Source: Natrinema halophilum (lineage in GTDB: Archaea; Halobacteriota; Halobacteria; Halobacteriales; Natrialbaceae). From it: a DNA stretch of 64,000 nt. Of this stretch, positions 1,394 to 45,784 are shown in pieces. Position numbers and translations under genes: made by a program. The stretch is taken from assembly GCF_013402815.2 (NCBI RefSeq), contig NZ_CP084880.1, positions 310,001-374,000 on the forward strand, written 5' to 3'. Numbering within the stretch: the stretch's first letter is position 1; each line of letters opens with the position of its first letter. The notes below the pieces were generated by a model. It saw only the letters and a list, made by a program, of their open reading frames with translations, did no database searches and had not been told where the DNA came from.

Positions 1394-1569
1394 CAGCCGC
1401 CTTGATGACCGGCAGTCGTTACGTCCGGGAGGTCGAAGACTGCGGCAAGGTACGTATCGTTGTTCCACTAACGGGGTTTGTGCCGAGGGGAGTACGTCTG
1501 GGGCTTTGGGGCTTTGACGACCGGGGAAGCGGGGCTCGATGTCGCCGTCACAACACGTCTGACTGAGTG

Positions 1570-2835
1570 ATGGACAACGTTTTAGTGACCATCGGGAAAG
1601 GCATGTACATGGGAGGCGACCACGAGGATCTTGTCTGGCGTCGAAATATTCTGGAGCAAGTACTGACTGTTCGACAGGAGGTTGCATCCACCGTTGGGAC
1701 AGAAACAGTCCCCATCGACTCGATTTCGGGGCGAACAATAGCCGAACCTGTCGTTGCCGACCGAGATATGCCGGAACACGACTTCGCGACCATGGACGGG
1801 TTCGCATTCGATGCGACGGACCCATATCCGTTGACCGTCGTCGAAGGGGAAGTCTATCCGGAAAATAAACCATCGGCGCTCGAATCGGGCGAAGCGATCC
1901 GCGTTGCGACGGGCGCACCAATTCCAGAGGCGGCGAACGCGGTGTTGAAACGGGAAGATGCAACCGTCGAAGACGGTTTGCTCCATGGAACCGACATTTC
2001 GCCGGGAACGTACACGTACGAACGTGGCGGGAACGTCAGTGAAGGTGACGTCCTCTTCGAACGAGGCGATCGTCTCTCGGCCAAAGATGCGATTCTCCTC
2101 GGTGACCTCGGAAAATCACGCGTCGACGTCACCGAAACCGTTTCGACGGGGGTTCTTGCGACGGGAACGGAGATCCACGAGGGCCGATCGCGCGACCTCG
2201 ATTCACCTATGTTGTCCGGTCTCGTCCGCTCGTGGGGACACGAAGCGACCTACGAGGGAACCGTCCCGGACGAGTACGATCGAATCGAATCGTCGATCGA
2301 AGAACTCGCGACGGAATACGACGTCGTCATCACGACGGGAGGGACGAGCGTCGGGCACAAGGATCACGTCATCCGAGCGTTAGAGTCGCTCGGATCGGTC
2401 GTCTTCCACCGTGTTCGACTTCGACCCGGCAAGCCCATCGCGCTTGCTCGATTACCCGACCACGATGCGATCGTCTTCGCCATCCCGGGGAAACCGATCG
2501 GCGCGCATACTGTCGCCACGCTCGTGATGCGGCCGTTCTTCACTGGCGAAACGTCGATACCGACGGTGCCTGCGTCCATGGAACGAGCGGTCTCTCTCGG
2601 GCCCGACGGCTTCGAATACGCGATTCCCGTGACCCTCTCTACGAACGCTGGTGATCGTCGGGCCATGCCGCTCGGTCACAGTGATTCGCCCCTGCAGGTA
2701 TACGACGACCGGTTCGATCCGAGCGTCCTCTCTTCGAGCACCCGTGCGAGTCAAGCGGACGGCATCGTTATCACTCGAACGGCGCTCGAGGCCGACGAGA
2801 ACGTCGAGGTCGTTCCGTATTCGGCAATCGAATGA
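1570..2835 (+). CDS. moeA: molybdopterin molybdotransferase MoeA family
   Basis: About 421 residues. MoeA inserts molybdate into adenylated molybdopterin to give active cofactor in the cytoplasm. The order is typical: an N-terminal segment with the RDMPEHDFATMDGFAF motif (the P-x-x-x-x-S/T-x-M-D-G-(F/Y)-A signature), the central MoCF-like domain with the TTGGTSVGHKD loop and the RPGKPIALA / IPGKP motifs, and a C-terminal beta domain. GTG 1567, ATG 1570 and ATG 1609 are all possible starts; I chose ATG 1570. The stop overlaps the ATG of the next gene by four bases, so it is translationally coupled to a MocA/YgfJ-type transferase. That pairing suggests a copy dedicated to the molybdenum hydroxylases further right rather than the housekeeping one, which is inference. 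Confidence 0.88.
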   Translation: MDNVLVTIGKGMYMGGDHEDLVWRRNILEQVLTVRQEVASTVGTETVPIDSISGRTIAEPVVADRDMPEHDFATMDGFAFDATDPYPLTVVEGEVYPENKPSALESGEAIRVATGAPIPEAANAVLKREDATVEDGLLHGTDISPGTYTYERGGNVSEGDVLFERGDRLSAKDAILLGDLGKSRVDVTETVSTGVLATGTEIHEGRSRDLDSPMLSGLVRSWGHEATYEGTVPDEYDRIESSIEELATEYDVVITTGGTSVGHKDHVIRALESLGSVVFHRVRLRPGKPIALARLPDHDAIVFAIPGKPIGAHTVATLVMRPFFTGETSIPTVPASMERAVSLGPDGFEYAIPVTLSTNAGDRRAMPLGHSDSPLQVYDDRFDPSVLSSSTRASQADGIVITRTALEADENVEVVPYSAIE

Positions 2836-3485
2836 CGCGGGAGGACCTTCCGGTCGTCGACCCGCCACCGGTCGACGAGATCGAACGGGACGGCTCCGTT
2901 CACGGCGTCGTTCTGGCGGCAGGGACGAGCGATCGATACGGGTCGAAGAACAAATTACTCGAAACGATCGACGGAACCCCGTTGATTCGGCACGCAGTCG
3001 CGACGCTCGTCGAATCCAGCGCCGCGCCGGTCACTGTCGTTCTGGGATACGATCGAGAACGCGTTCGAAGGGTGCTCAGCGAGTACGACGTGGACTATCA
3101 GTACAACGAGTCCTACGAGAACGGCCAGAGCACCTCGGTTCGAACGGGAATTTCGGCCGCTCGCGAGCGCGATTCGGATGCTGTCGTCTTTGCGCTCGGT
3201 GACATGCCGGCGGTATCCCCGACTACGGTCGATCTGCTCGTTTCCGCTTATCAATCGGGGTGTGGCTCGGTACTCACCGCTGGCTACGACGGAACGCGGG
3301 GAAATCCGGTATTGTTCGACTCGCGGCATTTCGACTCTCTCGGTTCCGTATCGGGTGACGTCGGCGGACGGACCGTGCTCCGAAACGCGTCAGATGCAGC
3401 TATCGTCGAAACTGGCGACCCGGGCGTTCTTCGGGACGTCGACCGTCCGGGCGACCGAGAACGAATGGACTCCGGCCCGAAATAG
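2832..3485 (+). CDS. MocA/YgfJ-type molybdenum cofactor nucleotidyltransferase
   Basis: This 217-residue NTP transferase has the nucleotide-binding signature LAAGTSDRYGSKNKLL at its N-terminus and the ALGDMPAVSP metal-binding motif mid-protein. The family (MobA-like, MocA or YgfJ) adds CMP or GMP to molybdenum cofactor. YgfJ-type members are recurring accessory proteins of selenium-dependent molybdenum hydroxylases, and MocA makes the cytosine dinucleotide form for xanthine-dehydrogenase-type enzymes. Which nucleotide is used here cannot be read from sequence. It overlaps moeA by ATGA. The tail after about residue 200 is polar and probably disordered. Confidence 0.82.
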   Translation: MTREDLPVVDPPPVDEIERDGSVHGVVLAAGTSDRYGSKNKLLETIDGTPLIRHAVATLVESSAAPVTVVLGYDRERVRRVLSEYDVDYQYNESYENGQSTSVRTGISAARERDSDAVVFALGDMPAVSPTTVDLLVSAYQSGCGSVLTAGYDGTRGNPVLFDSRHFDSLGSVSGDVGGRTVLRNASDAAIVETGDPGVLRDVDRPGDRERMDSGPK

Positions 3486-24429: not shown

Positions 24430-25314
24430 TTAGACGTCTGTAATTCCCATCAGCTCGACTGCTGCCTCGATATCTGCGAAATCGTCGTGATCTGCTTCGA
24501 CGTATCGGTCGACGTTTAGCTGATCGAGCATCTCGTCCGAGACTGACTCGTGGAGGGTGAGAAACGCCTGTTGAATCTCCTCGGCCCGATCGTCGTCGAC
24601 GGACGGGCCCACGGCCCACGGGTAGTCGGCAAATGAAGGCGTTCGCCAGATTTCGATGGCTCCGTCCGTTTTGCCCGCTTCGTGCTTTGCGTCGAAAATG
24701 CGTGCGTTCAACGAGCCCGCATCGGCGTCTCCGTTCGCGACCGTCCGAACCACAGCATCGTGAGCACCGACGTGGGTAGTCGAGAGGTCCGCCTCGAGAT
24801 CGATGTCCCACTCTTCGTTGGCGTAGTACGTGGGCATAACGGTCCCGGACGTGCTAATCGGGTCGCCGAACACGAAATCGACGTCGGATGCGTCGCGGAG
24901 GTCGGTCGGGTCTTCGATTCCGCTACTTTCGTGGGCGACGAAGACGGATTCCCACTTCGTCGATCCGTCCTTTTCACCGACGGCGATCGCTCTGACGTCG
25001 GCGCGCTGACTCGCGATGACGTACGAAACGCCGCCGAAGTACGCGATATCGACGTGATCTCCGGTCGTCGCTTGAACGAGTCCCGCGTAATCCGACGTCG
25101 TATCGAGGCTGATCGTGACTCCGAGTTCATCCTCCAGGTGGTTCGCGAGTGGCGTGTTTTTGTCGATGGCTGTATCCGGATCGACGTCCGGGATAACGCC
25201 GATAGAGAGTTCGTCGCTCGTTGCACTTCCGAGACAGCCCGCCGTAGAAACGACGCCTGTCCCGAGTACACCAAGAAACGTACGTCTGGTTGAGCGCCCG
25301 CGAAGCTGCGTCAT
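24430..25314 (-). CDS. PhnD-type substrate-binding lipoprotein
   Basis: 294 residues. The N-terminus has a twin-arginine signal and lipobox (STRRTFLGVLGTGVVSTAGC), so it is exported folded and lipid-anchored, typical of haloarchaeal binding proteins. The mature part has the PhnD/transferrin-like layout: LSIGVIPDVDP at the start, then DIAYFGGVSYVIA in lobe 1, FVFGDPISTSGTVMPTYY near the hinge, and GDADAGSLNARIF. The SxSG(T/Y) loop contacts the ligand in phosphonate proteins. It is the first gene of the transporter operon. The actual ligand is uncertain; purine-locus context leaves open an oxyanion or ureide. Confidence 0.85.
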   Translation of the reverse strand: MTQLRGRSTRRTFLGVLGTGVVSTAGCLGSATSDELSIGVIPDVDPDTAIDKNTPLANHLEDELGVTISLDTTSDYAGLVQATTGDHVDIAYFGGVSYVIASQRADVRAIAVGEKDGSTKWESVFVAHESSGIEDPTDLRDASDVDFVFGDPISTSGTVMPTYYANEEWDIDLEADLSTTHVGAHDAVVRTVANGDADAGSLNARIFDAKHEAGKTDGAIEIWRTPSFADYPWAVGPSVDDDRAEEIQQAFLTLHESVSDEMLDQLNVDRYVEADHDDFADIEAAVELMGITDV

Positions 25315-25580
25315 TATCCTTGATGAAAGATCCCGTTCGGTATAAAATTGGTGTCAGTCGATTTGAGCCACAACTGTGCCACAGGACCTGTTGTGTACTT
25401 TCTGTGGCGATCGAACGAAACGGCACTCTCGCGAGTACGCCGCCATCTCGATTAGGGGCAACTGACTGCGGGCCAGAAACGGTATCCTGATCACGCCATT
25501 CCTCTCGGCTGCAACGATGGTCTCGAGCTCGTCAGCCCCATCCATCTCGGAGACGATCGTCACTAACTGTTATTACGAAC

Positions 25581-25868
25581 GTGACCGTACTGGCGGACGT
25601 GCACATCGACGTCAGTGGAATGGTTTGCCCGCAACCGGTGAGCATCGTCCGCCGCTGTCTCGAGGAACTCGAACCCGGCGACGAACTGGTCGTTACCGGT
25701 GATTATCCGCCAGCCGAACGCAGTATTTGCAGAACCTGCTACAAGCACGGATATGCGGTCACCGATGCCACCGACGACGACTCTGACGGTGCGGAAACGT
25801 TCACCCTTCGAATTCGTGTAACCGAGGGCGTCACACCCTCCACGGGTGAGACGAGACACCGTAACTGA
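25581..25868 (+). CDS. TusA/SirA-family sulfurtransferase-like protein (copy 1)
   Basis: 95 residues, start GTG 25581. It has the single catalytic cysteine motif of TusA: VCPQP with C16, followed by the expected beta-alpha-beta-alpha-beta pattern. Two further cysteines (ICRTCYKHGY) and the GDYPPAERS loop match the TusA-like protein beside SelD at 44524-44784 closely, so the two are paralogues. TusA-type proteins carry persulfide (or perselenide) between partners. In orphan-SelD genomes a SirA-like protein is a known companion of the selenium genes. It stands alone here, beside the molybdenum hydroxylase genes. A C-terminal tail of about 15 residues is polar. Confidence 0.82.
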   Translation: MTVLADVHIDVSGMVCPQPVSIVRRCLEELEPGDELVVTGDYPPAERSICRTCYKHGYAVTDATDDDSDGAETFTLRIRVTEGVTPSTGETRHRN

Positions 25869-25937: not shown

Positions 25938-26750
25938 TCACGAGTCGCTCTCAAAACCGTCGTCGAACCGCCACGCGAGAACTACTTCGTCGACCAAGCC
26001 GGCTTCCGTCCGATACCGTCCCTCGCGTCTGGCGTCGACGGTCCATCCGTCGGACTCGAGCGTTTCGATGGTACCCTGCTTCGTTGCCGGAAGCGGGCGG
26101 TAGACTTTCCCGTATCCTCGCGACCGGGCCCACTTGAGGCCGTACTCTCGCAGCCGACTCCCGAGACTGACATCGCCACCACTCGTTTCGACGACGCCGC
26201 TCGTTAACGTCACCGTGTGTTTGTCCTGCGGCCGAGACGAACTGAGAAGGACCCATCCCCGCATTTCGGTGGCCGTGTACGCGGCGTATGCGACGCGTTC
26301 ACGCACACGATCCTGGCGAAACAGTCGTCCCTCGGTCGCCACCCGACGAGAAATCTGTTCCGTTTCAACGTCAGGGTTCTCGCCGTCGTTCTGCTGGAGA
26401 CGCTCACACAGGTCGGTGTACCCCCTCCAGCCGACCGGGCGAATCGTAACGTCGCCGTTTACCGATCGAGCGGTGACGGTTTCGGGGTCGGGAAGCGTTG
26501 CAACGTCGAAACCGATTCGAAGTCGATTTCCATCGGCCGTGAGTATCCCGAGGCGTTTGAGTGCCACACAGTGATGGACGGCGGCACGCTGGTCGGTTAC
26601 GGAATCGGATCGATAGACCAGACGCTCACGGGCCACCGGTTCGTGATTGCGGACGTACTCGTAGATGCGCCGCTGTCTCTCGCTGAAATAACGACACTGT
26701 TGATCCACTCGAGTCGTACTTTGGGCGTTACGTTGGTTGTCAGTGGCCAT
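25938..26750 (-). CDS. HTH plus GNAT-like acetyltransferase protein
   Basis: 270 residues. The first about 75 look like a winged helix (QRRIYEYVRNHEPVARERLVYR, then AVHHCVALKRLGILTADGNRLRIG). The C-terminal half has a GNAT-like pattern: the VRERVAYAAYTATEMRGWVLL beta strands, SRLREYGLKWARSRGYGKVYRPL (helix and Q/RxxG-type acetyl-CoA loop), and a final TIETLESDGWTVD. The fusion could be a ligand-sensing regulator or an N-acetyltransferase. It faces the TusA-like gene convergently. I know no characterised example. Confidence 0.55.
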   Translation of the reverse strand: MATDNQRNAQSTTRVDQQCRYFSERQRRIYEYVRNHEPVARERLVYRSDSVTDQRAAVHHCVALKRLGILTADGNRLRIGFDVATLPDPETVTARSVNGDVTIRPVGWRGYTDLCERLQQNDGENPDVETEQISRRVATEGRLFRQDRVRERVAYAAYTATEMRGWVLLSSSRPQDKHTVTLTSGVVETSGGDVSLGSRLREYGLKWARSRGYGKVYRPLPATKQGTIETLESDGWTVDARREGRYRTEAGLVDEVVLAWRFDDGFESDS

Positions 26751-27015: not shown

Positions 27016-29466
27016 TTACGCTTCGCGGCGCTCGATCGCCGCTTTGACGTCCGTCGCAGTGATCGGGAGCGACGTCATGCGCACCCCAACGGCGTCACTA
27101 ATCGCGTTACTGAGCGCGGGTGGGATTCCGTTCGTCGGCAGTTCGCCGATGGATTTGGCGCCGAACGGGCCCGTCGGCTCGTGTGTTTCGACCAGGATCG
27201 TCTCCATCGGTGGGTGATCCGTCGTCCGTGGCATCCCGTATTGACGGAACCCGGTCGTCTGTGGGTTCCCCTCGTCGTCGAACTCCAACCCGCCACTCGT
27301 CGCGTACTCGAGGCTCATGTGTTGGCCTCCCTCGACCTGCCCCTCGGCAAGCGGTGGATTGATCGCAACGCCGCAGTCGGCCGCGTAGACCAGTTTGTTC
27401 AGTTCGAACTCGCCGGTCTCCTCGTCGACGGTGACGTCCACGAATTGCGCGCCGAACGGCGGCGGACTCTCGTCCGTCGAGTGGTGGCCGTCGCCCATGA
27501 TCTGTTCGCGTTCGTCGTGGCCGTAGGTCGCTTCGTAGCCGATTTCCTCTAAGTCGACGCTCGCGTCCGTCTCCTCGCTGTAGACTTCCCCGTTTCCGGT
27601 CTCGAGGTTCGCTTCGGGTTCCTCGAGGAGTTTCGATCCCCAGTACAATAGGCGATCTTTGGCGTCTTCGGCTGCTTTTTTGACCGCCGTTCCGCTGATG
27701 TACGTCGTCGACGACGCGTAGGAGCCGTAGTCGAACGGCGTGATGTCAGTATCTGACGATTTGACGACGATATCATCCGGTCGACAGCCGAGCACTTCGG
27801 CTGCGACCTGGCTGAACATCGTATCGTTTCCCGTTCCAGTGTCGACACCGCCGACGTGAAGGTGGAACGAGCCGTCCTCGTTCATCATAAGTTTTGCAGC
27901 GCCGAGTTCCTTGCCAGCGACCCCGCTTCCCTGTGCACACATCGCCATCCCGACCCCACGATGGAGGTTGTCTTCCTCGGGTTGCTCGACGTCGTCCCAG
28001 CCGATCGCGTCCATGCCGCGTTCGATACACTCTTCCAGGCCACAGGAGCGAATTCGTCGGGCAAAACGATCGTCGTCCTTGAGGATGGTCGAAACGTCGT
28101 CGAGATCCCCCTTTCGTATCGCGTTTTGGCGCTTGAACTCGATGGGGTCTATCCCGAGGTCGCGGGCAACCTCATCCATGTGTGCCTCGACGGCGAAGTG
28201 ACCCTGTGGGGCACCGTACCCGCGCATCGCGGCACCCATCGGCAGGTTCGTGTGAACGACGTCGCCCTCGAACCGGATGTTCGGAACGCGCGGATACAGC
28301 GGAAGCGCCTTTGTTCCGACGTTCGTTGCGACCGTCATCCCGTGGGTGCCGTACGCTCCGGCGTTCGAGCGCGCATAGAGGTCCATCGCCACGATCGTCC
28401 CGTCCTCGGTCACTGCCGATCGCATCGTCATGTCCATCGGATGGCGCGACCGCAGCGCGTAGAATTCCTCCTGTCGCGTCATCTCGAGTTTGACGGGTCG
28501 GTCGACCTCGAGGTGAAGTGCGAACGCGATCGGTTCGATCGCCATCTCCTGTTTCGCGCCGAAACCGGCGCCGACGCGGGGTTTATCCACGCGGATATCT
28601 CGGATCGGCACGTCGAAGACGTGCGCGAGCTGTCGTCGCGTGTGATTTGGCACCTGCGTTGCGGTGATGAACGTGTATCTGTCGTCTTCGTCCGTATAGG
28701 CGATCGTCGTGTGGGGCTCTGGAACGCAGTGGGACTGATACGGCGTGTCCAGTTCGGTCTCGTGTACATGGACGTCGTCACGCTCGAACGCTTGCTCGAC
28801 GTCGCCGATTTCTCCTTCGAAGTGCGACTCGAGGTTACGTTCGTACTCCGCGCCGCTCTGTGCGTTTTCCACCTCGTCGTCTTCGAACAGCCGTGGCGCA
28901 TCCGGTTCCATCGCCCTCTCTACGTCGAAAACGGCGTCGCGTTCCTCGTACTCGACCTCGATCGCGCGGGCGGCTCGATCCGCGATCTCACCGGTTTCGG
29001 CGGCGACGGCCGCGACCGGATCTCCCACGAACCGAACGTGTCTCCTGAGAACGCGCATATCCCACGGACTCGGTTCCGGATAGGACTGGCCGGAACTCGA
29101 GTACAGCGTGTTGGGAACGGCGTCGTCCCAGGGTGTGACGACTGCGTATACGCCGTCCATCGATTCGGCCTTGCTTGTATTGATATCTGTCACGATGCCG
29201 TGTGCGACGTCGCTGCGGACGACCGTCCCGTGGGCGAGGTCGGGAAACTGACGGCTGTAATCGGCTGTATACTGCGCCTCGCCCGTAACGATCTTCCGCG
29301 CGTCGTCCTTTTCGACGTCCGTCGTGAGATTTTCGCGTTCGTCACTAGGTTTGCGGTTGTTCTCCGGTTCGTCCCACTCCATCGGGGACTGCTCGGAGTC
29401 GGCGACTCGTCGCTCGCCTTCTTCGGTCGTGTCGTCGGGACGATCTCGTTCAGTCGGTTTACTCAT
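27016..29466 (-). CDS. molybdenum hydroxylase large (Mo) subunit, copy 1 (xanthine dehydrogenase family)
   Basis: 816 residues. The Mo-subunit pattern is complete: KIVTGEAQYTADY, VRSDVAHG, cofactor-contacting KPRVGAGFGAKQEM near residue 300, GAAMRGYGAPQGHFA, VGGVDTGTGNDTMFSQ, SYASSTTYISG, and the C-terminal GAKSIGELPTNGIPPALSNA in which the Glu is the catalytic base equivalent of xanthine dehydrogenase. It hydroxylates purines or other N-heterocycles using water. A polar leader of about 60 residues precedes the domain. It overlaps the 2Fe-2S gene by ATGA. No FAD subunit is in the window, so electrons must leave by another route. Selenium-dependence is inferred from context. Confidence 0.87.
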   Translation of the reverse strand: MSKPTERDRPDDTTEEGERRVADSEQSPMEWDEPENNRKPSDERENLTTDVEKDDARKIVTGEAQYTADYSRQFPDLAHGTVVRSDVAHGIVTDINTSKAESMDGVYAVVTPWDDAVPNTLYSSSGQSYPEPSPWDMRVLRRHVRFVGDPVAAVAAETGEIADRAARAIEVEYEERDAVFDVERAMEPDAPRLFEDDEVENAQSGAEYERNLESHFEGEIGDVEQAFERDDVHVHETELDTPYQSHCVPEPHTTIAYTDEDDRYTFITATQVPNHTRRQLAHVFDVPIRDIRVDKPRVGAGFGAKQEMAIEPIAFALHLEVDRPVKLEMTRQEEFYALRSRHPMDMTMRSAVTEDGTIVAMDLYARSNAGAYGTHGMTVATNVGTKALPLYPRVPNIRFEGDVVHTNLPMGAAMRGYGAPQGHFAVEAHMDEVARDLGIDPIEFKRQNAIRKGDLDDVSTILKDDDRFARRIRSCGLEECIERGMDAIGWDDVEQPEEDNLHRGVGMAMCAQGSGVAGKELGAAKLMMNEDGSFHLHVGGVDTGTGNDTMFSQVAAEVLGCRPDDIVVKSSDTDITPFDYGSYASSTTYISGTAVKKAAEDAKDRLLYWGSKLLEEPEANLETGNGEVYSEETDASVDLEEIGYEATYGHDEREQIMGDGHHSTDESPPPFGAQFVDVTVDEETGEFELNKLVYAADCGVAINPPLAEGQVEGGQHMSLEYATSGGLEFDDEGNPQTTGFRQYGMPRTTDHPPMETILVETHEPTGPFGAKSIGELPTNGIPPALSNAISDAVGVRMTSLPITATDVKAAIERREA

Positions 29467-30008
29467 CGATCCGTCTCACCTCGTGAATCGACCTCGAGTC
29501 CCGTGTCCTCGCAGCGACACGAGTATCCGCCATCGGCAGCAACCGTCTGCTCACCCATTCGTTCCGATGCCTCGAGGACCGCTTCGACGATTTTCTTGTA
29601 TCCGGTACACCGACAGAGGTTGTCAGACAGCGCCTCCCGGACTTCAGCCTCGCTCGGTGATGGGTTCTCCTCCAGCAGCGCCTTCGATCGCATAATCATC
29701 CCCGGAATACAGAATCCACACTGCAGCGCCGAGTTGTCGACGAACGCCTGCTGAACCGGGTGCAGATCGTCCTGAGTGCCGAGCCCTTCGACCGTCTCGA
29801 TGGTCGCACCGTCGGCCTTCACGACCGGCGTTATACACGACATCGTCGGCTCTCCATCGATCTGGACGGTACACATTCCACACGCGCCGGTGTCACAGCC
29901 GCGCTTAGCACCGGTGTATCCGTTCTGACGCAACACGTCGAGCAGGAGGTCTGATTTCGATACCTCGAAGGACCGTTCGTTACCGTTGATTGTACATTCG
30001 ATGTGCAT
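29463..30008 (-). CDS. molybdenum hydroxylase 2Fe-2S subunit, copy 1
   Basis: 181 residues starting at ATG 30008 (MHIECTING); a longer reading frame begins at 30047 but adds no conserved residues. It has the plant-type 2Fe-2S site C-x4-C-x2-C-x11-C (GCDTGACGMC and SC after 11 residues) and the second site CGFC ... CRC of the xanthine-dehydrogenase family. It passes electrons from the molybdenum subunit. The C-terminal 25 residues carry an extra CRC and are not in the usual fold. It is the first gene of a two-gene minus-strand operon; AT-rich DNA upstream (30090-30120) likely holds the promoter. Confidence 0.88.
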   Translation of the reverse strand: MHIECTINGNERSFEVSKSDLLLDVLRQNGYTGAKRGCDTGACGMCTVQIDGEPTMSCITPVVKADGATIETVEGLGTQDDLHPVQQAFVDNSALQCGFCIPGMIMRSKALLEENPSPSEAEVREALSDNLCRCTGYKKIVEAVLEASERMGEQTVAADGGYSCRCEDTGLEVDSRGETDR

Positions 30009-30288
30009 ATGGCTCACTCTATGGGGGATGCTACCACTATACCTCACACCACACGTACCGGAACCTTAAGATTTGTCGAGGTTTCTGCTCACTAATAATA
30101 TGTAATAAAACATTTTTGGAGGTTATCCTTATTCACAGATACGTGAGATCACGAATGCCTGAAAGTCCCGAATCCGCGAACGACGTCCGTTCGATAGGTC
30201 GGGAGTGTGACCCGCGGAGACGGGTCAGATAACGGAGAGTGCGAAGAATGGAGGGAATGGTGGTCCGAAGTGTCAGATTGGGGTTAGC

Positions 30289-32733
30289 TCACTCGTCGTC
30301 TTCGAGGGCGGCTCTGATTTTTTCCGGGGTGATCGGCATGTCGGTGATCCGAACGCCGACCGTTTCACGGATGGCGTTGCTCAGCGCGGGCGGAACCGTG
30401 TTCGTCGGCACTTCCGCCACGGATTTGGCGCCGAACGGGCCGGTCGGCTCGTGCGTTTCGACCAGAATCGACTCGATCGTCGGCGTCTCCGACGCCGTAG
30501 GCCAGTCGTAGTCGCCGAAACTCGTCACCTCCGATCGGCCGTCGTCGTCGAACGTAATGCCTTCGCTGACCGCCATCTCGTAGCTCATGTGGTTTGCGCC
30601 TTCGACCTGTCCCTCTGCCATGCCGGGGTTGATCGCGACCCCGCAATCGACCGCGACGACGAGCTTGTTGACCTCGAACTCGCCGGTTTCTTCGTCGACG
30701 GTGACGTCCGCGAACTGTGCGGCAAACGGCGGCGGACTCTCCTCCGTGCAGTGGGTCCCTTTTCCGAGGATGTGTTCGCGTTCATCGTGCCCGTAGGCGG
30801 CCTCGTAACCGATCTCTTCGAGGCTGACGCTCTCACCCGTCTCTTCACTGTAGACCTCCCCGTCTCCCGTCTCGAGGTTCGCTTCGGGTTCCTCGAGAAG
30901 TTTCGAGCCCCAGTGAAGGATGCGCTCTTTCGCGTCCTCTGCGGCCTTTTTGACCGCCATGCCGCTGATGTAAGTCGTCGAGGAGGCGTACGCCCCGTAG
31001 TCGAAGGGCGTGACGTCCGTGTCGGACGATTTAATGACGATGTCCGTTTCGGGACAGCCGAGCACTTCGGCTGCGATCTGGATGAACGCCGTGTCCGCTC
31101 CGGTTCCGATATCGACGCCGCCGACGTGCAGGTGGAACGACCCGTCCTCGTTCATCATGAGCTGGGCGGCACCGAGTTCGTCGCCCGCGACACCGGTCCC
31201 CTGTGCGGAGAGTGCCATCCCGATGCCTCGGTGGCGGTGCTCCTCGTCCGGTTGGTCGATGTCGCCCCATCCGATCGCGTCCATACCGCGTTCGATACAC
31301 TCGTCGAGGCCGCACGAGCGGATTCGTCGCTCTGCACCTTCGCCACCCATCATGCCGGCGATTTCGTCGAGATCGCCGACTTCCATGTAATGGCGTTTGC
31401 GGAACTCGATGGGATCGAGGTCGAGATCGCGGGCCACCTCGTCTAAGTGTCCCTCGAGCGCGAGGGTGCCCTGTGGGGCGCCGTAGCCACGCATCGCCCC
31501 CGTCTGTGGGGTGTTCGTGTGGACGATATCGGCTTTGAATCGCGCGTTCGGAACCTTCGAGTACAGCGGCATCGGCTTGCTACCGACGTTTCCGGCGACG
31601 GTCATGCCGTGACTCCCGTACGCGCCCGTGTTCGAGAGCGCGTACAGATCGATGGCTTCGATCGACCCATCGTCGGTAACTGCGGTGCGCGCTCGGACTT
31701 TCATCGGGTGTCGCGAGCGCATCCCGGCGAACTCCTCTTCGCGCGTCGCTTCGTAGATGACTGGACGGTCGGCCGCGAGGGCCAGCGCGAGCGGAATCGG
31801 CTCGACGACCATCGCCTGTTTGCCGCCGAAGCCGCCACCGACCCGTGGCTTCGAGACGCGAATGTCCCGAATGGGGATGTCGAACAGGTGAGCTAGCTGT
31901 CGGCGCGTGTGATTGGGTACCTGCGTACTCGTGACGAGTACGTGTCTGTCGTCCTCGTCGGTGTACGCGAGGGTGGTATGTTTCTCGATCTGGGCGTGGG
32001 ACTGTCGGATCGTCTCCCACTCGGTTTCGTGGACGTGGACGTCGTCACGATCGACGGCCCCGTCGACGTCACCGATCTCGCCCTCGATCTGGGACATCCG
32101 ATTGCGGCTGTAATCGTGCCCGACGATCTTGTTCTCGACCTCGTCGTCGCCGAATATCTGGGGGGCGTCCTCGGAGTATGCCTCCTCGGGATCGAGTACG
32201 TAGTCGTTCTCCTCGTATTCGACCTCGATGGCGTCGGCCGCGGCGCGTGCAGTCTCGGCGTCGTCAGCCGCGATTGCTGCGACCGGATCGCCGATGTAGC
32301 GGACGTGCTCGTTGAGCACGTTCATGTCCCATGGGCTCGGTTCGGGGTAGGACTGACCCGCGCTCGTATACTTCGCGTCCGGGGTTTCGTCGGACCACGG
32401 CGTCAGAACGGCGTGGACGCCGTCCATCTCTTCTGCGTCGTTCGTGTCGATATTCGCCACTCGACCGTGTGGAACGTCGCTACGGACGACGGCGGCGTGT
32501 GCGAGGTCCGGGAACTTCTTCTCGTAATCCGCTGTGTATTTCGCCTGACCGGTGACGAGTTTCGGATCGTCGTCTTTCTCGGCCGATTGGGAGACGCTGG
32601 CTCGTTCGTCGGGGGCTAGATTGTTGTTCTCCGGTTCGTCCCACTCGAGTGGATGGTCCTCGAATTCCGTGACGTCCTGTTCCGGGTGCGATGCGGTACC
32701 ACCATCGGGCTTCGGATCGTTTTCGTTACTCAT
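30289..32733 (-). CDS. molybdenum hydroxylase large (Mo) subunit, copy 2
   Basis: 814 residues from ATG 32733. It is a clear paralogue of the copy at 27016-29466, with the same order: KLVTGQAKYTADY, PRVGGGFGGKQAM (more canonical than copy 1's GAGFGAKQ), GAMRGYGAPQGTLA, VGGVDIGTGADTAF, AYASSTTYISG and GAKSVAEVPTNTVPPALSNA with the conserved Glu. The acidic leader is about 55 residues. It overlaps its 2Fe-2S gene by eight bases. Purine-degrading bacteria with selenium-dependent enzymes often have two (xanthine dehydrogenase and purine hydroxylase), so two substrates are plausible. Tandem duplication is visible from sequence; the substrates are not. Confidence 0.87.
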   Translation of the reverse strand: MSNENDPKPDGGTASHPEQDVTEFEDHPLEWDEPENNNLAPDERASVSQSAEKDDDPKLVTGQAKYTADYEKKFPDLAHAAVVRSDVPHGRVANIDTNDAEEMDGVHAVLTPWSDETPDAKYTSAGQSYPEPSPWDMNVLNEHVRYIGDPVAAIAADDAETARAAADAIEVEYEENDYVLDPEEAYSEDAPQIFGDDEVENKIVGHDYSRNRMSQIEGEIGDVDGAVDRDDVHVHETEWETIRQSHAQIEKHTTLAYTDEDDRHVLVTSTQVPNHTRRQLAHLFDIPIRDIRVSKPRVGGGFGGKQAMVVEPIPLALALAADRPVIYEATREEEFAGMRSRHPMKVRARTAVTDDGSIEAIDLYALSNTGAYGSHGMTVAGNVGSKPMPLYSKVPNARFKADIVHTNTPQTGAMRGYGAPQGTLALEGHLDEVARDLDLDPIEFRKRHYMEVGDLDEIAGMMGGEGAERRIRSCGLDECIERGMDAIGWGDIDQPDEEHRHRGIGMALSAQGTGVAGDELGAAQLMMNEDGSFHLHVGGVDIGTGADTAFIQIAAEVLGCPETDIVIKSSDTDVTPFDYGAYASSTTYISGMAVKKAAEDAKERILHWGSKLLEEPEANLETGDGEVYSEETGESVSLEEIGYEAAYGHDEREHILGKGTHCTEESPPPFAAQFADVTVDEETGEFEVNKLVVAVDCGVAINPGMAEGQVEGANHMSYEMAVSEGITFDDDGRSEVTSFGDYDWPTASETPTIESILVETHEPTGPFGAKSVAEVPTNTVPPALSNAIRETVGVRITDMPITPEKIRAALEDDE

Positions 32734-33271
32734 TCGTCTCACCGTTGCGTTCGGTTCCCTCGCAAGCGTTTGGGGCAGACGGCGTGCCGCCATCCGTCGC
32801 GACGGCCCCGTCACCGTTCATTCGCGCTGCGGCGTCGAGTATCGCTTCGACGGGTTTCTGATATCCGGTACACCGACACAGATTGTCGTCGATAGCCTCC
32901 CGAACCTCCGCTTCGGTCGGGTCGGGAGTCTCCTCGAGCAGTTCCTTCGTCTGGACGATCATTCCCGGGATACAGAACCCACACTGAACTGCGAAGTGGT
33001 CGACGAACGCCTGCTGGATCGGATGGAGCTCGTCCTGACTACCGATGCCTTCGATCGTCTGGATCGTTGCGCCATCAGCTTCCTGGACGGCTTTTCCACA
33101 CGCCATCTCGGCGCTCCCTTCGATGAGGACCTTCGAAGCCCCGCAGATGCCACCGTCACAGCCGCATTTCACGCCCGTGTACCCTTCGCGACGGAGCACC
33201 GATGCGAGATCGTCGTCCGGCGCTGCCTCGATGTCAAGCGATTCGCCGTTGACGGTCAGGCTGAACTGCAC
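32726..33271 (-). CDS. molybdenum hydroxylase 2Fe-2S subunit, copy 2 (Cys-to-Ser in plant-type site)
   Basis: 181 residues, start GTG 33271 with an AGGAGGG ribosome site six bases upstream (33278-33284), unusual in mostly leaderless haloarchaea. The second cluster site is normal (CGFC ... CRC). In the first, plant-type site the run is C38-x4-C43-x2-S46-x11-C58: the third cysteine ligand of copy 1 is serine here. An extra cysteine sits at C36. Serine can ligate iron in engineered ferredoxins but changes potential and stability. So this cluster may be altered, or C36 may substitute. The upstream gap is divergent with the F420 oxidoreductase gene. Confidence 0.87.
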   Translation of the reverse strand: MQFSLTVNGESLDIEAAPDDDLASVLRREGYTGVKCGCDGGICGASKVLIEGSAEMACGKAVQEADGATIQTIEGIGSQDELHPIQQAFVDHFAVQCGFCIPGMIVQTKELLEETPDPTEAEVREAIDDNLCRCTGYQKPVEAILDAAARMNGDGAVATDGGTPSAPNACEGTERNGETNE

Positions 33272-40865: not shown

Positions 40866-41237
40866 ATGATCCACGTCGGGTTTCTGCTTACCGGTGGCCC
40901 CTTCGATAGCGAACGGTGGCGGACAGCATACGAACTCGGCCGGGCAGCGCTCGACGCCGGTCACGAGGTCACGTACTTCCATTATCTCGACGGCGCCTAC
41001 GTTCCGGTCGCCGACCAGCACCTCCCCGACTGTTCGGAGGCGGGACTGTACGACGAAATGCCGACGGATAAGTTTCAGGACCTGATCGACGACGGTGCCG
41101 AGGTGATTTGCTGCGGCCTCTGTGTGAACGCACGGGGTATCGACGCCGAAACGGACTACCCGGACGGCGTCGAAGTCGGTCTGCTGCCGGATCTGGCGGA
41201 TATACTCGGCGAGGCCGATCGGGTGATCTCGCTATGA
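40866..41237 (+). CDS. DsrE-like protein (first of a DsrE/F/H-type trio)
   Basis: 123 residues. DsrE/TusD-type alpha/beta fold: MIHVGFLLTGGPFDSERWRTAY, GHEVTYFHYLDG and the active-site-like ICCGLCVNARGID with C82, C83 and C86; C56 is separate. In DsrE/TusD one cysteine carries persulfide. It overlaps the next gene by ATGA. The trio is absent from housekeeping sulfur operons here and sits directly upstream of the XdhC-YqeB fusion. I infer a chalcogen-transfer role for the molybdenum cofactor; the partner and the element are unproven. Confidence 0.75.
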   Translation: MIHVGFLLTGGPFDSERWRTAYELGRAALDAGHEVTYFHYLDGAYVPVADQHLPDCSEAGLYDEMPTDKFQDLIDDGAEVICCGLCVNARGIDAETDYPDGVEVGLLPDLADILGEADRVISL

Positions 41238-41587
41238 AACGAGACGTCCTCGTCTTGCTCACGCGAGGGCCATACGGTCGCGTCCACGTCCCTGAAGGGC
41301 TTCGGGCGGCTCGTGGCGTCGCTGCCGGCTTCGATCGTCACGACGTCTCCGTCGTGTTCACGCAGGACGGTATCTACGCCGCTCGAGCGGCGGTCGACCG
41401 CGATGCGCTCAACATGACCGACCATCTCATCGACCTCGCAGAGGAAGAGGGTGAGTTGTTCGTCGACGAGGCATCGATGACGGCACGCGACGTCACACCC
41501 GAGGAAATAGCTCCCGACGTCGGCATCAAGACCGGCGAGGAGATCGCGTCGATGATCAAGCAGGCTGATCACACTCTCGACTTTTGA
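41234..41587 (+). CDS. DsrF/TusC-like protein (second of the trio)
   Basis: 117 residues, start overlapping the DsrE-like stop (ATGA at 41234-41237). It shows the DsrE-superfamily pattern (KRDVLVLLTRGPYG, FDRHDVSVVFTQDGIYAA, DLAEEEGELFVDE) with no cysteine at all, as in TusC/DsrF, which are structural members of the TusBCD complex. The C-terminus is EIASMIKQADHTLDF. It is probably one subunit of a hetero-oligomer with the flanking two proteins. Confidence 0.7.
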   Translation: MKRDVLVLLTRGPYGRVHVPEGLRAARGVAAGFDRHDVSVVFTQDGIYAARAAVDRDALNMTDHLIDLAEEEGELFVDEASMTARDVTPEEIAPDVGIKTGEEIASMIKQADHTLDF

Positions 41588-41589
41588 CA

Positions 41590-41835
41590 ATGTTGTATTT
41601 GATTGACAAACCGATGGCGGAAATCGGACTGCGATCGGCGGCGAACGACGACGACGGAATCGTCGTCCTGATACAGGACGGCGTCTTGCTCGATCCGGAT
41701 CTCGACGCGCCGACGCTCGCAGTCGAACGCGACCTCGAGATGCGCGGTCTGACCGCGCCCGAACGAATCGACACCGTCACGTACGACGAACTGATGACGC
41801 TCATGGTCGATCACGAGGTGACGAGTTTCGTATGA
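41590..41835 (+). CDS. DsrH/TusB-like small protein (third of the trio)
   Basis: 81 residues from ATG 41590 (TTG 41584 would overlap the previous stop). It has MLYLIDKPMAEIGL at the N-terminus, then VVLIQDGVLLDP and a C-terminal TYDELMTLMVDHEVTSFV, the usual DsrH/TusB layout (L-L-x-x-D-G-V and a final (D/E)-H). It has no cysteine. The DsrH role is as a partner subunit. It overlaps the ATG of the XdhC-YqeB fusion by four bases, so all four genes form one co-translated set. Confidence 0.7.
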   Translation: MLYLIDKPMAEIGLRSAANDDDGIVVLIQDGVLLDPDLDAPTLAVERDLEMRGLTAPERIDTVTYDELMTLMVDHEVTSFV

Positions 41836-43409
41836 CGCTCTTCGATCGCGTCGACGAACTCGTCGAGCAGGGACGGCCGGCCTCGATGCTGACCGTCGTG
41901 GGCAAAGACGGAAGTGCGCCGCGGGACGTCGGGGCGAAAATGCTCGTGACCGACGAAGACGAGTACGGAACGATCGGCGGCGGAACGGTCGAAGGGCTCG
42001 CCGTCGACGAAGCTCGTGACGTCCTCCGCGGCGACGCCGATCCCGGGGTCCGGTCGTACGAACTGCGTCCCGGCGGCAACACCGGCATGGTCTGTGGCGG
42101 GTCCATGGACGTCTTTATCGATCGAATCCGGGGCCGCTCTCGGCTCCATGTCGCGGGCGGTGGACACATCGGCGTCGAACTCGCGGCGATGGGGAACCGA
42201 CTCGGTTACGACGTCACCGTCGTCGACGACCGCGAGGAATACGCATCCTCGGACCGGTTTGCTGCGGAGGCGGACGTCGTTCACGGGGACTACGACGAGG
42301 TCCTCGCCGAACTCCCGATGACGTCGGAAACGGCGGTCGCCGTCGCGACGCGAAGCGGAACGTTCGACCGACAGGCCGTCGCCGCCGCAATCGACGGTGG
42401 CGCCGGCTACGTCGGCGTCGTTGCCAGCGAAGACAAGGCGGCTCACATTTTCGATTCGTTGCTCGAGGAGGGTTACTCGCGCCGAGACCTCGTTCGCGTC
42501 CGCGCGCCCGTCGGGCTCGACCTCGGTGGGGGTGGACCCGAAGACGTCGCGCTCTCGGTTCTCGCCGAGATGCACCGCGATCGCTACGACACGACAGGCG
42601 AGCGAGCGACCAGACACGATCTCGAGGACCTCGTCGTCGTTCGCGGTGGCGGCGACCTCGGGAGTGGTGTGGTCTATCGCCTCCATCGAGCAGGCTATCC
42701 GGTCATCGTGGCTGAGACGGCGCGGCCGACCGTCGTCCGCCGCGCGGTCGCGTTCGGCGCTGCGATGTACGAGGACGAAGTCTCCATACAGGGCGTCACG
42801 GGCCGTCAGGCCGCCGATATCGACGACGCACTCGCCGCTATCAAAGACGACGAGGTGCCCGTCCTCGAGGACCCGAACGCGACCGTCGTCGACGAACTCG
42901 AGCCGAAGGCCGTCGTCGATGCGATTATGGCCAAGGGGAAGACGGACACCGGAACCCGCCGGGACCTCGCGGACGTCGTCATCGGTCTCGGTCCGGGATT
43001 CGAGGCCGGCGAGAACGTGGACGCCGTCGTCGAAACCGATCGTGGACACGAACTCGGACACGTCATCTACGACGGGAAACCCAGCCCGTACGACGGCGAA
43101 CCGGGTGAACGTCGTGGGTACACTCACGAGCGAGTTCTCAGAGCCCCAAGCGACGGCGTGTGGTCGCCGTCGGTCGAAATCGGCGACATCGTCGAGGCGG
43201 AGGCAACCGTCGGCTACGTCGACGACGATCCGGTCGTCACGGCAATCGGCGGGCTCGTCCGGGGACTCGTCCACGACGGCGTTTCCGTCTCTTCTGGCGC
43301 GAAACTCGGTGACGTCGATCCCCGAGATGACGTCGACTACACGAAGATTTCCGACAAAGCGCTCTGTCTCGGCGGCGGCGTTCTCGAAGCGTTGCTCAAC
43401 CTCTCCTAG
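41832..43409 (+). CDS. XdhC-YqeB fusion protein, selenium-dependent hydroxylase accessory
   Basis: 525 residues. Residues 1-about 252 are XdhC/CoxF-type: GSAPRDVGAKMLV, GGGTVEGLA, the MVCGG site with C88, a Rossmann VAGGGHIGVELA, then APVGLDLGG and EDVALSVLAEM. After a short linker, residues about 266-525 match YqeB: VVRGGGDLGSGVVYRLHRAGY, VVRRAVAFGAAMYEDEVSI, VIGLGPGFEAG, HELGHVIYDG, ERVLRAPSDG and ISDKALCLGGGVLEALL. XdhC binds and sulfurates (or protects) the cofactor before insertion; YqeB is a selenium-dependent-hydroxylase maturation protein. Joining them suggests one step-by-step handover. It is last in the DsrE/F/H-like operon and faces selD. Confidence 0.87.
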   Translation: MTLFDRVDELVEQGRPASMLTVVGKDGSAPRDVGAKMLVTDEDEYGTIGGGTVEGLAVDEARDVLRGDADPGVRSYELRPGGNTGMVCGGSMDVFIDRIRGRSRLHVAGGGHIGVELAAMGNRLGYDVTVVDDREEYASSDRFAAEADVVHGDYDEVLAELPMTSETAVAVATRSGTFDRQAVAAAIDGGAGYVGVVASEDKAAHIFDSLLEEGYSRRDLVRVRAPVGLDLGGGGPEDVALSVLAEMHRDRYDTTGERATRHDLEDLVVVRGGGDLGSGVVYRLHRAGYPVIVAETARPTVVRRAVAFGAAMYEDEVSIQGVTGRQAADIDDALAAIKDDEVPVLEDPNATVVDELEPKAVVDAIMAKGKTDTGTRRDLADVVIGLGPGFEAGENVDAVVETDRGHELGHVIYDGKPSPYDGEPGERRGYTHERVLRAPSDGVWSPSVEIGDIVEAEATVGYVDDDPVVTAIGGLVRGLVHDGVSVSSGAKLGDVDPRDDVDYTKISDKALCLGGGVLEALLNLS

Positions 43410-43502: not shown

Positions 43503-44531
43503 TCAGCCGTGGACCCGTTCGATCGTCGGATCGACGATCGTCGCGCCGGAATCGGTCGTAACGCGGCCGACGTGACGATAGAACACGTTTGCATCTGAGA
43601 GGGAGGACTCGAACGCGTCCGTCTGTCGGTCAGGGACCGCTAGTAATAGCCCCCCGCTCGTTTCCGCACTCTCGCCGTCTTCGAGGCCGTAGCCGAAAAG
43701 CTGGGAGAGCTCGAGGGTGCCGTCGATGATGGGGAGGTGCGTGAGCTCGACGCCGACGCCGGCGTTCTCCGCGAGGACGCGAGCCTGTCCCAGGAGCCCG
43801 AAGCCCGTGATATCGGTCGCGGCCGTCGCGTATTCCCGGGCCGCGAGCATCGCGTCCCTGTTCGGCGTCGTCATCCACGCGAGCGCCTCGTCTGCGATGT
43901 CCTGTACGGGTCGGGCCGTCGTTTCCGCGATCGTCTCGCCGAATTCTCCGTCTCGCACACGGAGCGCGCCCATCGCCGGTTGCGTGCCGAGCGGTTTCGT
44001 CAGATAGAGACGGTCCGACGGCGAGGCGTCGCTCGTCTGGAGGACGTGTTCCGACGGAGTGGTGGCGATGACGGACCCGCCCGCGATCGGCCATGGGTTC
44101 ATGATCGTGTGTCCACCCGCGACGACGCCCTCCATGTCGTCCACCGCGTCGACGATGCCGCACAGAACGTCCGTGGCCGCGTCCGTTAGTTCCTGTGGCA
44201 GGCCGAGGACCACCAGAAATGTCAGATCATCGCCAGCACCGGTCGCGAACGCGTCGCTGGCCGCATTACACGCGGCGATGCGACCGAATTCGTACGGGTC
44301 GTCTATAATCGGCGTGAAGAAATCGATCGTGGAGACGACACTGAGACCGTCGGCGATGACGCGAGCGCTCGCGTCCTCGCCGACACCGAACTGCAGTTCC
44401 TCCTGAGCCTCGGATAACCCGACGTCTGTGAGCAACGAGTCGAGTTCGGCCTGACCGACTTTACACGAACAGCCGTGAAGCTCTGCGTATTCGGTCAGGG
44501 CTGGTGAGCGGTCGTCACCTGCGTCAGACAT
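43503..44531 (-). CDS. selD: selenide, water dikinase (selenophosphate synthase), Cys form
   Basis: 342 residues from ATG 44531. It makes selenophosphate from selenide and ATP. Motifs: HGCSCKVG with C21, C23 and K24 (equivalents of E. coli C17, C19 and K20; Cys, not selenocysteine), GEDASARV, TIDFFTPIIDDPYEFGRIAA, GGHTIMNPWPI, TKPLGTQPAMG, TDITGFGLLGQ and TSGGLLLAV. The active set is complete. No selA, selB or MnmH gene is seen in the window, fitting the orphan-SelD trait in which selenophosphate serves selenium-dependent molybdenum hydroxylases. It overlaps the TusA-like gene by eight bases and is convergent with the XdhC-YqeB fusion. Confidence 0.93.
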   Translation of the reverse strand: MSDAGDDRSPALTEYAELHGCSCKVGQAELDSLLTDVGLSEAQEELQFGVGEDASARVIADGLSVVSTIDFFTPIIDDPYEFGRIAACNAASDAFATGAGDDLTFLVVLGLPQELTDAATDVLCGIVDAVDDMEGVVAGGHTIMNPWPIAGGSVIATTPSEHVLQTSDASPSDRLYLTKPLGTQPAMGALRVRDGEFGETIAETTARPVQDIADEALAWMTTPNRDAMLAAREYATAATDITGFGLLGQARVLAENAGVGVELTHLPIIDGTLELSQLFGYGLEDGESAETSGGLLLAVPDRQTDAFESSLSDANVFYRHVGRVTTDSGATIVDPTIERVHG

Positions 44532-44784
44532 CCTCTTCCTCCGATCGGCTCGAGTCGGCAGATGGACGAATGAGCAATTCAAAGCTACCGTCGGCGTCTT
44601 CGGGTGCCGGCCGATCCTCGACTTCGTAGCCGTGTTTCGTACATGTTCGGCGGAGATTGGTTTCTGCTGGCGGGTAATCTCCCCGAACGAGCAGTTCGTC
44701 GTTCTCGCCCAGGTCGGACAACCGCCGACGAACGATGAGAGCGGGACGCGGACATACTTCCCCTGTGACGTCCACACGTTCCAT
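44524..44784 (-). CDS. TusA/SirA-family protein beside SelD (copy 2)
   Basis: 86 residues from ATG 44784. The active motif is EVCPRP with C11; a second cysteine is in the RRTCTKHGYEV segment. It is closely related to the copy at 25581-25868 (both share GDYPPAE, an RTC stretch and KHGY), but lacks that copy's extra cysteines. It is cotranscribed with selD by an eight-base overlap. SirA-like proteins beside orphan SelD were noted in published surveys. A likely role is to carry selenium as perselenide to or from SelD; sulfur carriage is the alternative. Confidence 0.85.
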   Translation of the reverse strand: MERVDVTGEVCPRPALIVRRRLSDLGENDELLVRGDYPPAETNLRRTCTKHGYEVEDRPAPEDADGSFELLIRPSADSSRSEEEDV

Positions 44785-45034: not shown

Positions 45035-45784
45035 ATGAATCTTGCCGAAACGCTCGGCCTCGGGGACGACGAACTCGTTTCGTTCGTCGGCGCTGGCGGA
45101 AAAAAGACTGCCATGACTCGGTTAGTCGCTGAGGCGAGCGAACGAGGTCTCGAGGCGGGATACACCACGACGACACACATGCCGCCGCCGGATCTTCCGC
45201 TCGTTCTCGCCGACCCGGATCGCATCGAGTCCAGTGTCGACGATGCCACAGCTCCGATCGCACTGGCCCGTACACGCGTCTCCAATCCATCCCGCGTCGA
45301 CGAGAAGGTACGAGGATACCAGCCGGCTACCCTCAATTCGCTGTTCGACGATGCTCCGTTCGACTGGCTCCTCGTCAAAGCCGATGGGGCCAGAATGCGC
45401 GAATTCAAAGCACCTGGCCCGAACGAACCGCCGATTCCACAGACGAGCACGGTCGTCGTTCCGGTTGCATCCGTTCAAGCTGTCGGCCAGCCACTCGCCG
45501 ACGACGTCGTCCACCGTGTCGATCGAATCGAACGCTGTGCGGATATCTCGGCAGGCGAGCGTATCACACCGGACGTCATCGGACAGGTTCTCGCTCATCC
45601 TGACGGTGGCCTGAAGCACGTTCCCGACGATGCGACGGTCGTTCCGCTCGTTAACAAAGCGGACGATGCCACGCTTGCGAGACAGGCAACGGATGCCGTC
45701 TCGACGGCCCTCGAGCGCACTTCCCGGCTCGACCGGGGGATCGTCACCTCGTTCGAAACGAACCGTCTCACCGCCGTCACGTGA
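45035..45784 (+). CDS. yqeC: selenium-cofactor biosynthesis protein YqeC
   Basis: 249 residues. YqeC features: a P-loop-like VGAGGKKTAMTRL near residues 18-30 (most homologues read GGKT; here one residue is changed to K), TTTTHMPPPD, the diagnostic VKADGARMREFKAPGPNEPPIPQ and a C-terminal VVPLVNKADD. YqeC is found only with selenium-dependent molybdenum hydroxylases and its enzyme role is not established; nucleotide binding is expected. It is divergent from the tusA-selD pair across a 250-base gap that should hold both promoters. Confidence 0.9.
   Translation: MNLAETLGLGDDELVSFVGAGGKKTAMTRLVAEASERGLEAGYTTTTHMPPPDLPLVLADPDRIESSVDDATAPIALARTRVSNPSRVDEKVRGYQPATLNSLFDDAPFDWLLVKADGARMREFKAPGPNEPPIPQTSTVVVPVASVQAVGQPLADDVVHRVDRIERCADISAGERITPDVIGQVLAHPDGGLKHVPDDATVVPLVNKADDATLARQATDAVSTALERTSRLDRGIVTSFETNRLTAVT

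Follow-up and report, generated by a model that had tools for sequence, protein, structure and literature searches.

A DsrEFH-like gene trio coupled to XdhC-YqeB in haloarchaeal selenium-dependent molybdenum hydroxylase loci: a possible chalcogen relay to the molybdenum cofactor

In a 64,000-nucleotide stretch of the genome of the haloarchaeon Natrinema halophilum (hereafter the window; contig C2 of the 4.84 Mb genome, NZ_CP084880.1, positions 310,001 to 374,000), four plus-strand genes at 40866–43409 encode, in order, three small proteins of the DsrE superfamily (D1, D2, and D3) and a 525-residue XdhC-YqeB fusion. The involvement of this trio in the selenium hydroxylase system is well supported, and we consider it somewhat more probable than otherwise (roughly 55%) that D1-D2-D3 constitute a DsrEFH-type complex, which passes sulfur or selenium, via Cys83 of D1, to the molybdenum cofactor on XdhC-YqeB. 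An initial annotation of the window had suggested a chalcogen relay to the cofactor; the tie of the trio to yqeB and selD (23/23 genomes) and the low likelihood of a tRNA role agreed with that suggestion, whereas the transfer of sulfur or selenium, the TusA donor, and the cofactor acceptor are steps that we infer.

In a sample of 292 Halobacteria genomes, YqeB scored above its cut-off in 23 and SelD in exactly those 23. Full-length D1 was present in exactly the same genomes, with the trio lying directly upstream of XdhC-YqeB in every one of them. The association with yqeB and selD, for which a genomic-context survey had been proposed, is thus beyond chance: the probability of such a match under random placement is ~1e-34, a value that bounds naive chance only, because the genes are linked and share ancestry. 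In the 22 loci that were fetched, the spacings at the three junctions (-4, +2, and -4 nucleotides (nt), the second being once +1 and once +3) were like those in the window, and the trio, XdhC-YqeB, SelD, TusA, YqeC, and a hydroxylase were present in all 22. Other neighbours were variable, such as adenine deaminase (7/22) and the PhnD-like protein (14/22).

The 23 positive genomes belong to six genera, each of which also includes genomes without all three markers, indicating that the set was gained or lost as a unit several times. D2 and YqeB were found on the same 14 haloarchaeal plasmid records, including pNG700 of Haloarcula marismortui (trio at 249606–250575). Some of this co-occurrence is due to joint inheritance, the genes being neighbours on the DNA. 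The trio could even be a passenger, retained only because it is linked to the other genes of a plasmid block for purine catabolism, which often resides on secondary replicons and is gained and lost as a unit. This explanation is improbable in view of the purifying selection on the trio and of junctions that are fixed in 23/23 genomes while other neighbours vary. The ratios of nonsynonymous to synonymous changes (pN/pS) over five pairs were 0.01–0.12 for D1, 0.06–0.21 for D2, and 0.08–0.45 for D3, values that place each gene of the trio under purifying selection. In addition, two genomes without SelD retain remnants of the locus: frameshifted pieces of D1, D2, and XdhC-YqeB in one (G073, L053:9000–9900), and adenine deaminase with the first 34 codons of D1 and an XdhC fragment just downstream in the other (G130, L143:2300–2500). 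The trio and XdhC-YqeB have decayed together in both genomes.

For D1 and D2, the Pfam DsrE scores (71.8 and 49.4 bits, respectively) were above the cut-off of 22.7 bits, and for D3 the Pfam DsrH score (21.8 bits) was slightly under the cut-off of 24.4 bits. The top NCBIfam models were TusD, TusC, and TusB, respectively, which gives the gene order D-C-B; the equivalog cut-offs of TIGR03012, TIGR03010, and TIGR03011 were not reached (19.9/89.25, 35/94.15, and 23/49.2 bits for D1, D2, and D3). The nearest PDB relatives in profile searches were DsrE for D1 (2hy5_A, E = 7e-4), DsrF for D2 (2hy5_B, E = 1e-6), and the DsrH-like TM0979 for D3 (E = 1e-7), and the homology of D3 to DsrH appears weak but consistent. 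In the family tree, D1 grouped with TusD (support 92/68, moderate) and D2 with a DsrF-like protein (91/79), YedF being separate. These sub-cut-off scores, PDB relatives, and tree placements suggest that the trio is a distant DsrEFH/TusDCB-type set and not TusBCD proper, in line with the order that had been read for it in the initial annotation. The XdhC-YqeB protein scored 340 bits with TIGR03309 (cut-off, 220) and contains the XdhC_CoxI and XdhC_C domains. Its gene overlaps that of D3 by ATGA, so that the trio runs straight into it as described; of the ATGA overlaps that had been noted within the trio, the D1/D2 overlap was seen (4 nt, as at D3/XdhC-YqeB), whereas D2 and D3 are separated by a 2-nt gap.

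The four cysteines of D1 (positions 56, 82, 83, and 86) are invariant in the 23 genomes, and D2 and D3 exhibit no conserved cysteine across the same genomes. Cys83 aligns with the Cys78 position of DsrE/TusD, and DsrE-Cys78 is a proven persulfide carrier in DsrEFH (PMC3397948). The previous observation that only the first protein has cysteines therefore holds; the CGxC pattern is closer to that of YchN, YedF, and stand-alone DsrE proteins than to TusD. An equivalent of Cys20 of DsrH was not found in D3, as in E. coli TusB. In XdhC-YqeB, Cys88 of the XdhC half and Cys512 of the YqeB half are candidate acceptor cysteines. The latter lies in the last conserved YqeB motif (SDKALCLGG in the window), and all haloarchaeal copies examined have Cys at this position, whereas bacterial YqeB has Cys in 3/71 and mostly Ala.

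In DsrEFH and TusBCD, a TusA-type protein donates persulfide, which is relayed to DsrC/TusE. Like DsrEFH of Allochromatium vinosum and TusBCD of E. coli, the trio consists of three small genes of the DsrE/DsrH fold arranged D-C-B, with a carrier cysteine at the Cys78 position and a TusA-like gene nearby. Conversely, it falls below all of the NCBIfam equivalog cut-offs, has CGxC instead of a single Cys, is coupled to XdhC-YqeB, and occurs without DsrC/TusE, MnmA, or a dsrAB context. The divergent DsrEFH type II trios, which have one active cysteine, are also alike; their setting is yeeE-tusA or reductive dsr genes, in contrast to the selenium hydroxylase locus here, a distinction drawn by description only, and 7% of their subtype 2 is archaeal (PMC13293266).

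In the proposed mechanism, D1-D2-D3 would form a DsrEFH/TusBCD-type complex devoted to the maturation of haloarchaeal selenium-dependent molybdenum hydroxylases. Cys83 of D1 would bear the chalcogen atom, most probably in the form of a persulfide or selenopersulfide, with the help of Cys86 and Cys82, and D2 and D3 would have structural roles. D1 would be loaded by the TusA-like protein whose gene overlaps selD, or by SelD-derived selenium, and would then hand the atom to Cys88 or Cys512 of XdhC-YqeB, which would hold the molybdenum cofactor and deliver it to the hydroxylase. In the simplest model, the coupled XdhC-YqeB would take the acceptor place of DsrC/TusE. The cofactor is described as being sulfurated by a desulfurase while XdhC-bound, before its insertion (Neumann 2007, by its title as cited in PMC6239281), and C. 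difficile needs both YqeB and SelD to use purines in a selenium-dependent manner (PMC11448449). The narrower proposal of a dedicated selenium relay, in which the complex would put activated selenium on the molybdenum cofactor through XdhC-YqeB, is a tentative one. If true, the trio would be, to our knowledge, the first DsrEFH/TusBCD relative that carries selenium, and would provide a direct handle on the insertion of the selenido ligand.

The distant homology to TusBCD would also allow a role in tRNA 2-thiouridine synthesis, as in bacteria. In the host genome, no match to the DsrC family was found, the top MnmA score was 22.4 bits against a cut-off of 236.95, and SelU (2-selenouridine synthase) was not found. 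Bacterial-type tRNA thiolation is very unlikely because the host is without DsrC/TusE, MnmA, and SelU, and the sparse distribution of the trio (just 23/292 Halobacteria) also rules against it; the tRNA-thiolation role that would have contradicted the earlier suggestion was thus not seen. No tRNA-Sec scored over the Rfam cut-off in the host, where SelA/SepSecS and SelB were not searched for, and thus, with SelU also missing, the searches revealed no second use for SelD.

The main rival explanation places the trio upstream of SelD, where it would act together with the TusA-like protein to collect, reduce, or store selenium for SelD as a split counterpart of bacterial YedF. YedF proteins of bacterial selD/yqeB loci have CGAC or CGTC motifs that align to the CGLC of D1, the TusA-like protein overlapping selD matches the YedF model over the model's N-terminal half, and YedF is reported to be absent from archaea (PMC5322559). 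Like YedF (a SirA/TusA-DsrE fusion, TIGR03527), the locus combines TusA and DsrE domains and a CGxC motif in a selenium setting. It differs in that the trio and TusA are separate genes, that there are three DsrE/DsrH-type subunits, and that the DsrE part adjoins yqeB rather than selD. In addition, the gene to which the trio is coupled in translation is XdhC-YqeB and not selD in 23/23 genomes, and the tree places D1 with TusD, albeit with moderate support, apart from YedF. D1 gave no match to TIGR03527, and the TusA-like protein, for which this is the top NCBIfam model, matched over the N-terminal domain of the model and under the cut-off (28.9/110 bits). A role in supplying SelD is accordingly possible but doubtful. 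The related idea that D1 is a split-off DsrE domain of YedF, suggested by the shared CGxC, was rejected, as the tree separates the two and the same motif is also present in DsrE proteins of other contexts.

The CxxC of D1, at the place where TusD has a single Cys, might alternatively mark the trio as a redox or protective partner, whose task would be to maintain selenide or the labile selenido ligand in a reduced state, or to repair the cofactor; selenium is labile in selenium-dependent hydroxylases (PMC2432076). We regard this function as rather unlikely, because the homology and gene order of the trio match those of a chalcogen carrier complex and Cys83 occupies the place of the carrier cysteine.

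A search of GTDB contigs yielded 80 YqeB loci, some of them truncated, of which 6 were haloarchaeal and 74 bacterial. The trio was present in 5/6 haloarchaeal loci, the sixth being cut off upstream. In the 74 bacterial loci, hidden Markov models of the haloarchaeal trio gave only weak D1 matches to YedF, and a Pfam DsrE scan of 37 of the genomes found only YedF near yqeB; strongly divergent or DsrH-only genes could escape these searches. Some of the bacterial loci have YedF in place of the trio. In E. coli, yqeB has no DsrE gene next to it, and the order in Enterococcus faecalis is sclA-selD-yedF-DUF3343-yqeC-yqeB. Haloarchaea have thus added the trio to the selenium locus, apparently by drawing on a broader pool of DsrEFH-like genes.

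Several of these points weigh against a relay through the trio. In bacteria, selenium hydroxylase loci function with no trio beside them, so that it is not a universal part of such loci, and the CGxC motif is found in DsrE proteins of unrelated context as well. Plasmid-borne physical linkage accounts for part of the co-occurrence, and we infer complex formation and the binding of sulfur or selenium by the trio from sequence and context. AlphaFold models built from 11 sequences were of low confidence (mean predicted local distance difference test score, pLDDT, of 55.8 for D1 and 68.5 for D3). With this low-confidence D1 model as the query, the top Foldseek match was still TusD (2d1p_A), and DsrE (2hy5_A) came third, both at weak E-values; the D3 model gave no match.

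Two further DsrE-type arrangements were observed. One is a DsrE-DsrF-DsrH-like trio (L163:3343–5474) in G473, a genome that belongs to the same phylum but not to Halobacteria. This trio, with CSRCAAARG in its first protein, the closest relative of D1 found in this analysis, neighbours a ferredoxin, a low-molecular-weight phosphatase-like protein, and an ArsR-type regulator with an Fe-S motif; YqeB was not found in this genome. The other is a stand-alone DsrE protein (ACGTC) in G295, a metagenome-assembled genome of Clostridia, where it is flanked by the end of a selD-like gene and by a cysteine-desulfurase-like gene (L156), a further instance of DsrE in a selenium neighbourhood.

SelD, YqeB, and YqeC all scored over their curated cut-offs in the window, so that the markers of the selenium-dependent molybdenum hydroxylase system are complete. 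The locus is of the selenium-dependent molybdenum hydroxylase type that Haft and Self (PMC2276186) and Zhang et al. (PMC2432076) defined in 2008, of which pNG700 of Haloarcula marismortui is the archaeal example, with the XdhC-YqeB fusion, a TusA-like protein, selD, yqeC, hydroxylases, and the trio in common. In Table 1 of Zhang et al. (PMC2432076), the pNG700 genes flanking the trio on both sides are given and the trio itself is absent; DsrE is not mentioned in the accessible part of Haft and Self (PMC2276186), and in those of later surveys it is mentioned solely for YedF and one selenoprotein. A literature search limited to open-access papers, which may have missed a report elsewhere, turned up no mention of the trio in selenium-hydroxylase loci, in line with the initial annotation, which knew of none.

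The trio thus points to an overlooked part for an unsolved step, the insertion of selenium into the purine-degrading hydroxylases of haloarchaea. The known markers of the system are SelD, YqeB, and YqeC, and no report was found of a chalcogen carrier to the cofactor. Being invariably coupled to XdhC-YqeB, the trio is a concrete candidate for this carrier that is open to genetic testing, and it extends what the DsrEFH/TusBCD type is likely to do past tRNA thiolation and sulfur oxidation.

Table 1. Features of the window, with window coordinates and supporting matches.
Feature	Coordinates	Strand	Evidence
D1, DsrE/TusD-like, 123 aa, CCGLC motif	40866..41237	+	Pfam DsrE, TusD model, PDB profile search
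D2, DsrF/TusC-like, 117 aa, no cysteine	41234..41587	+	Pfam DsrE, TusC model, PDB profile search
D3, DsrH/TusB-like, 81 aa, no cysteine	41590..41835	+	Pfam DsrH sub-threshold, TusB model, PDB profile search
XdhC-YqeB fusion, molybdenum-cofactor chaperone half and selenium-cofactor half, Cys88 and Cys512	41832..43409	+	TIGR03309, XdhC_CoxI, XdhC_C
selD, selenide water dikinase, start inferred at ATG 44531	43503..44531	-	TIGR00476 249 bits (cut-off 125), NF010705 311 bits (cut-off 291)
TusA-like CPxP protein, 8-nt overlap with selD	44524..44784	-	Pfam TusA 55.8 bits
yqeC, selenium-cofactor protein	45035..45784	+	TIGR03172 183 bits (cut-off 73)
Second TusA-like protein (CPQP)	25581..25868	+	Pfam TusA 59.5 bits
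Molybdenum hydroxylase large subunit (xanthine dehydrogenase family), presumed client	27016..29466	-	MoCoBD_1, MoCoBD_2, Ald_Xan_dh_C; XdhA 661 bits (cut-off 780)
Second molybdenum hydroxylase large subunit, presumed client	30289..32814	-	MoCoBD_1, MoCoBD_2, Ald_Xan_dh_C; XdhA 658 bits (cut-off 780)
MoeA-like molybdopterin molybdotransferase	1567..2835	+	NCBIfam MoeA-type matches
MocA/YgfJ-like molybdenum cofactor cytidylyltransferase	2832..3485	+	TIGR03310 132.9 bits, under cut-off 186

Two TusA-like genes lie nearby, as had been noted, and one of them overlaps selD (Table 1). Two molybdenum hydroxylases of the xanthine dehydrogenase type span 27016–33271; their large subunits scored 295 and 262 bits with the Se_dep_XDH model, under the cut-off of 830, and are XdhA-like. 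The window also holds purine permeases, adenine deaminase, and other amidohydrolases. A PhnD-like substrate-binding protein adjoins the second TusA-like gene (24430–25868), and Haft and Self suggested that selenate is carried by a phosphate-type transporter encoded in the Haloarcula locus. The open reading frame at 25938–26750, which separates the second TusA-like gene from the hydroxylase, gave no Pfam match; a hypothetical protein occupies the equivalent position in Natrinema caseinilyticum (L060).

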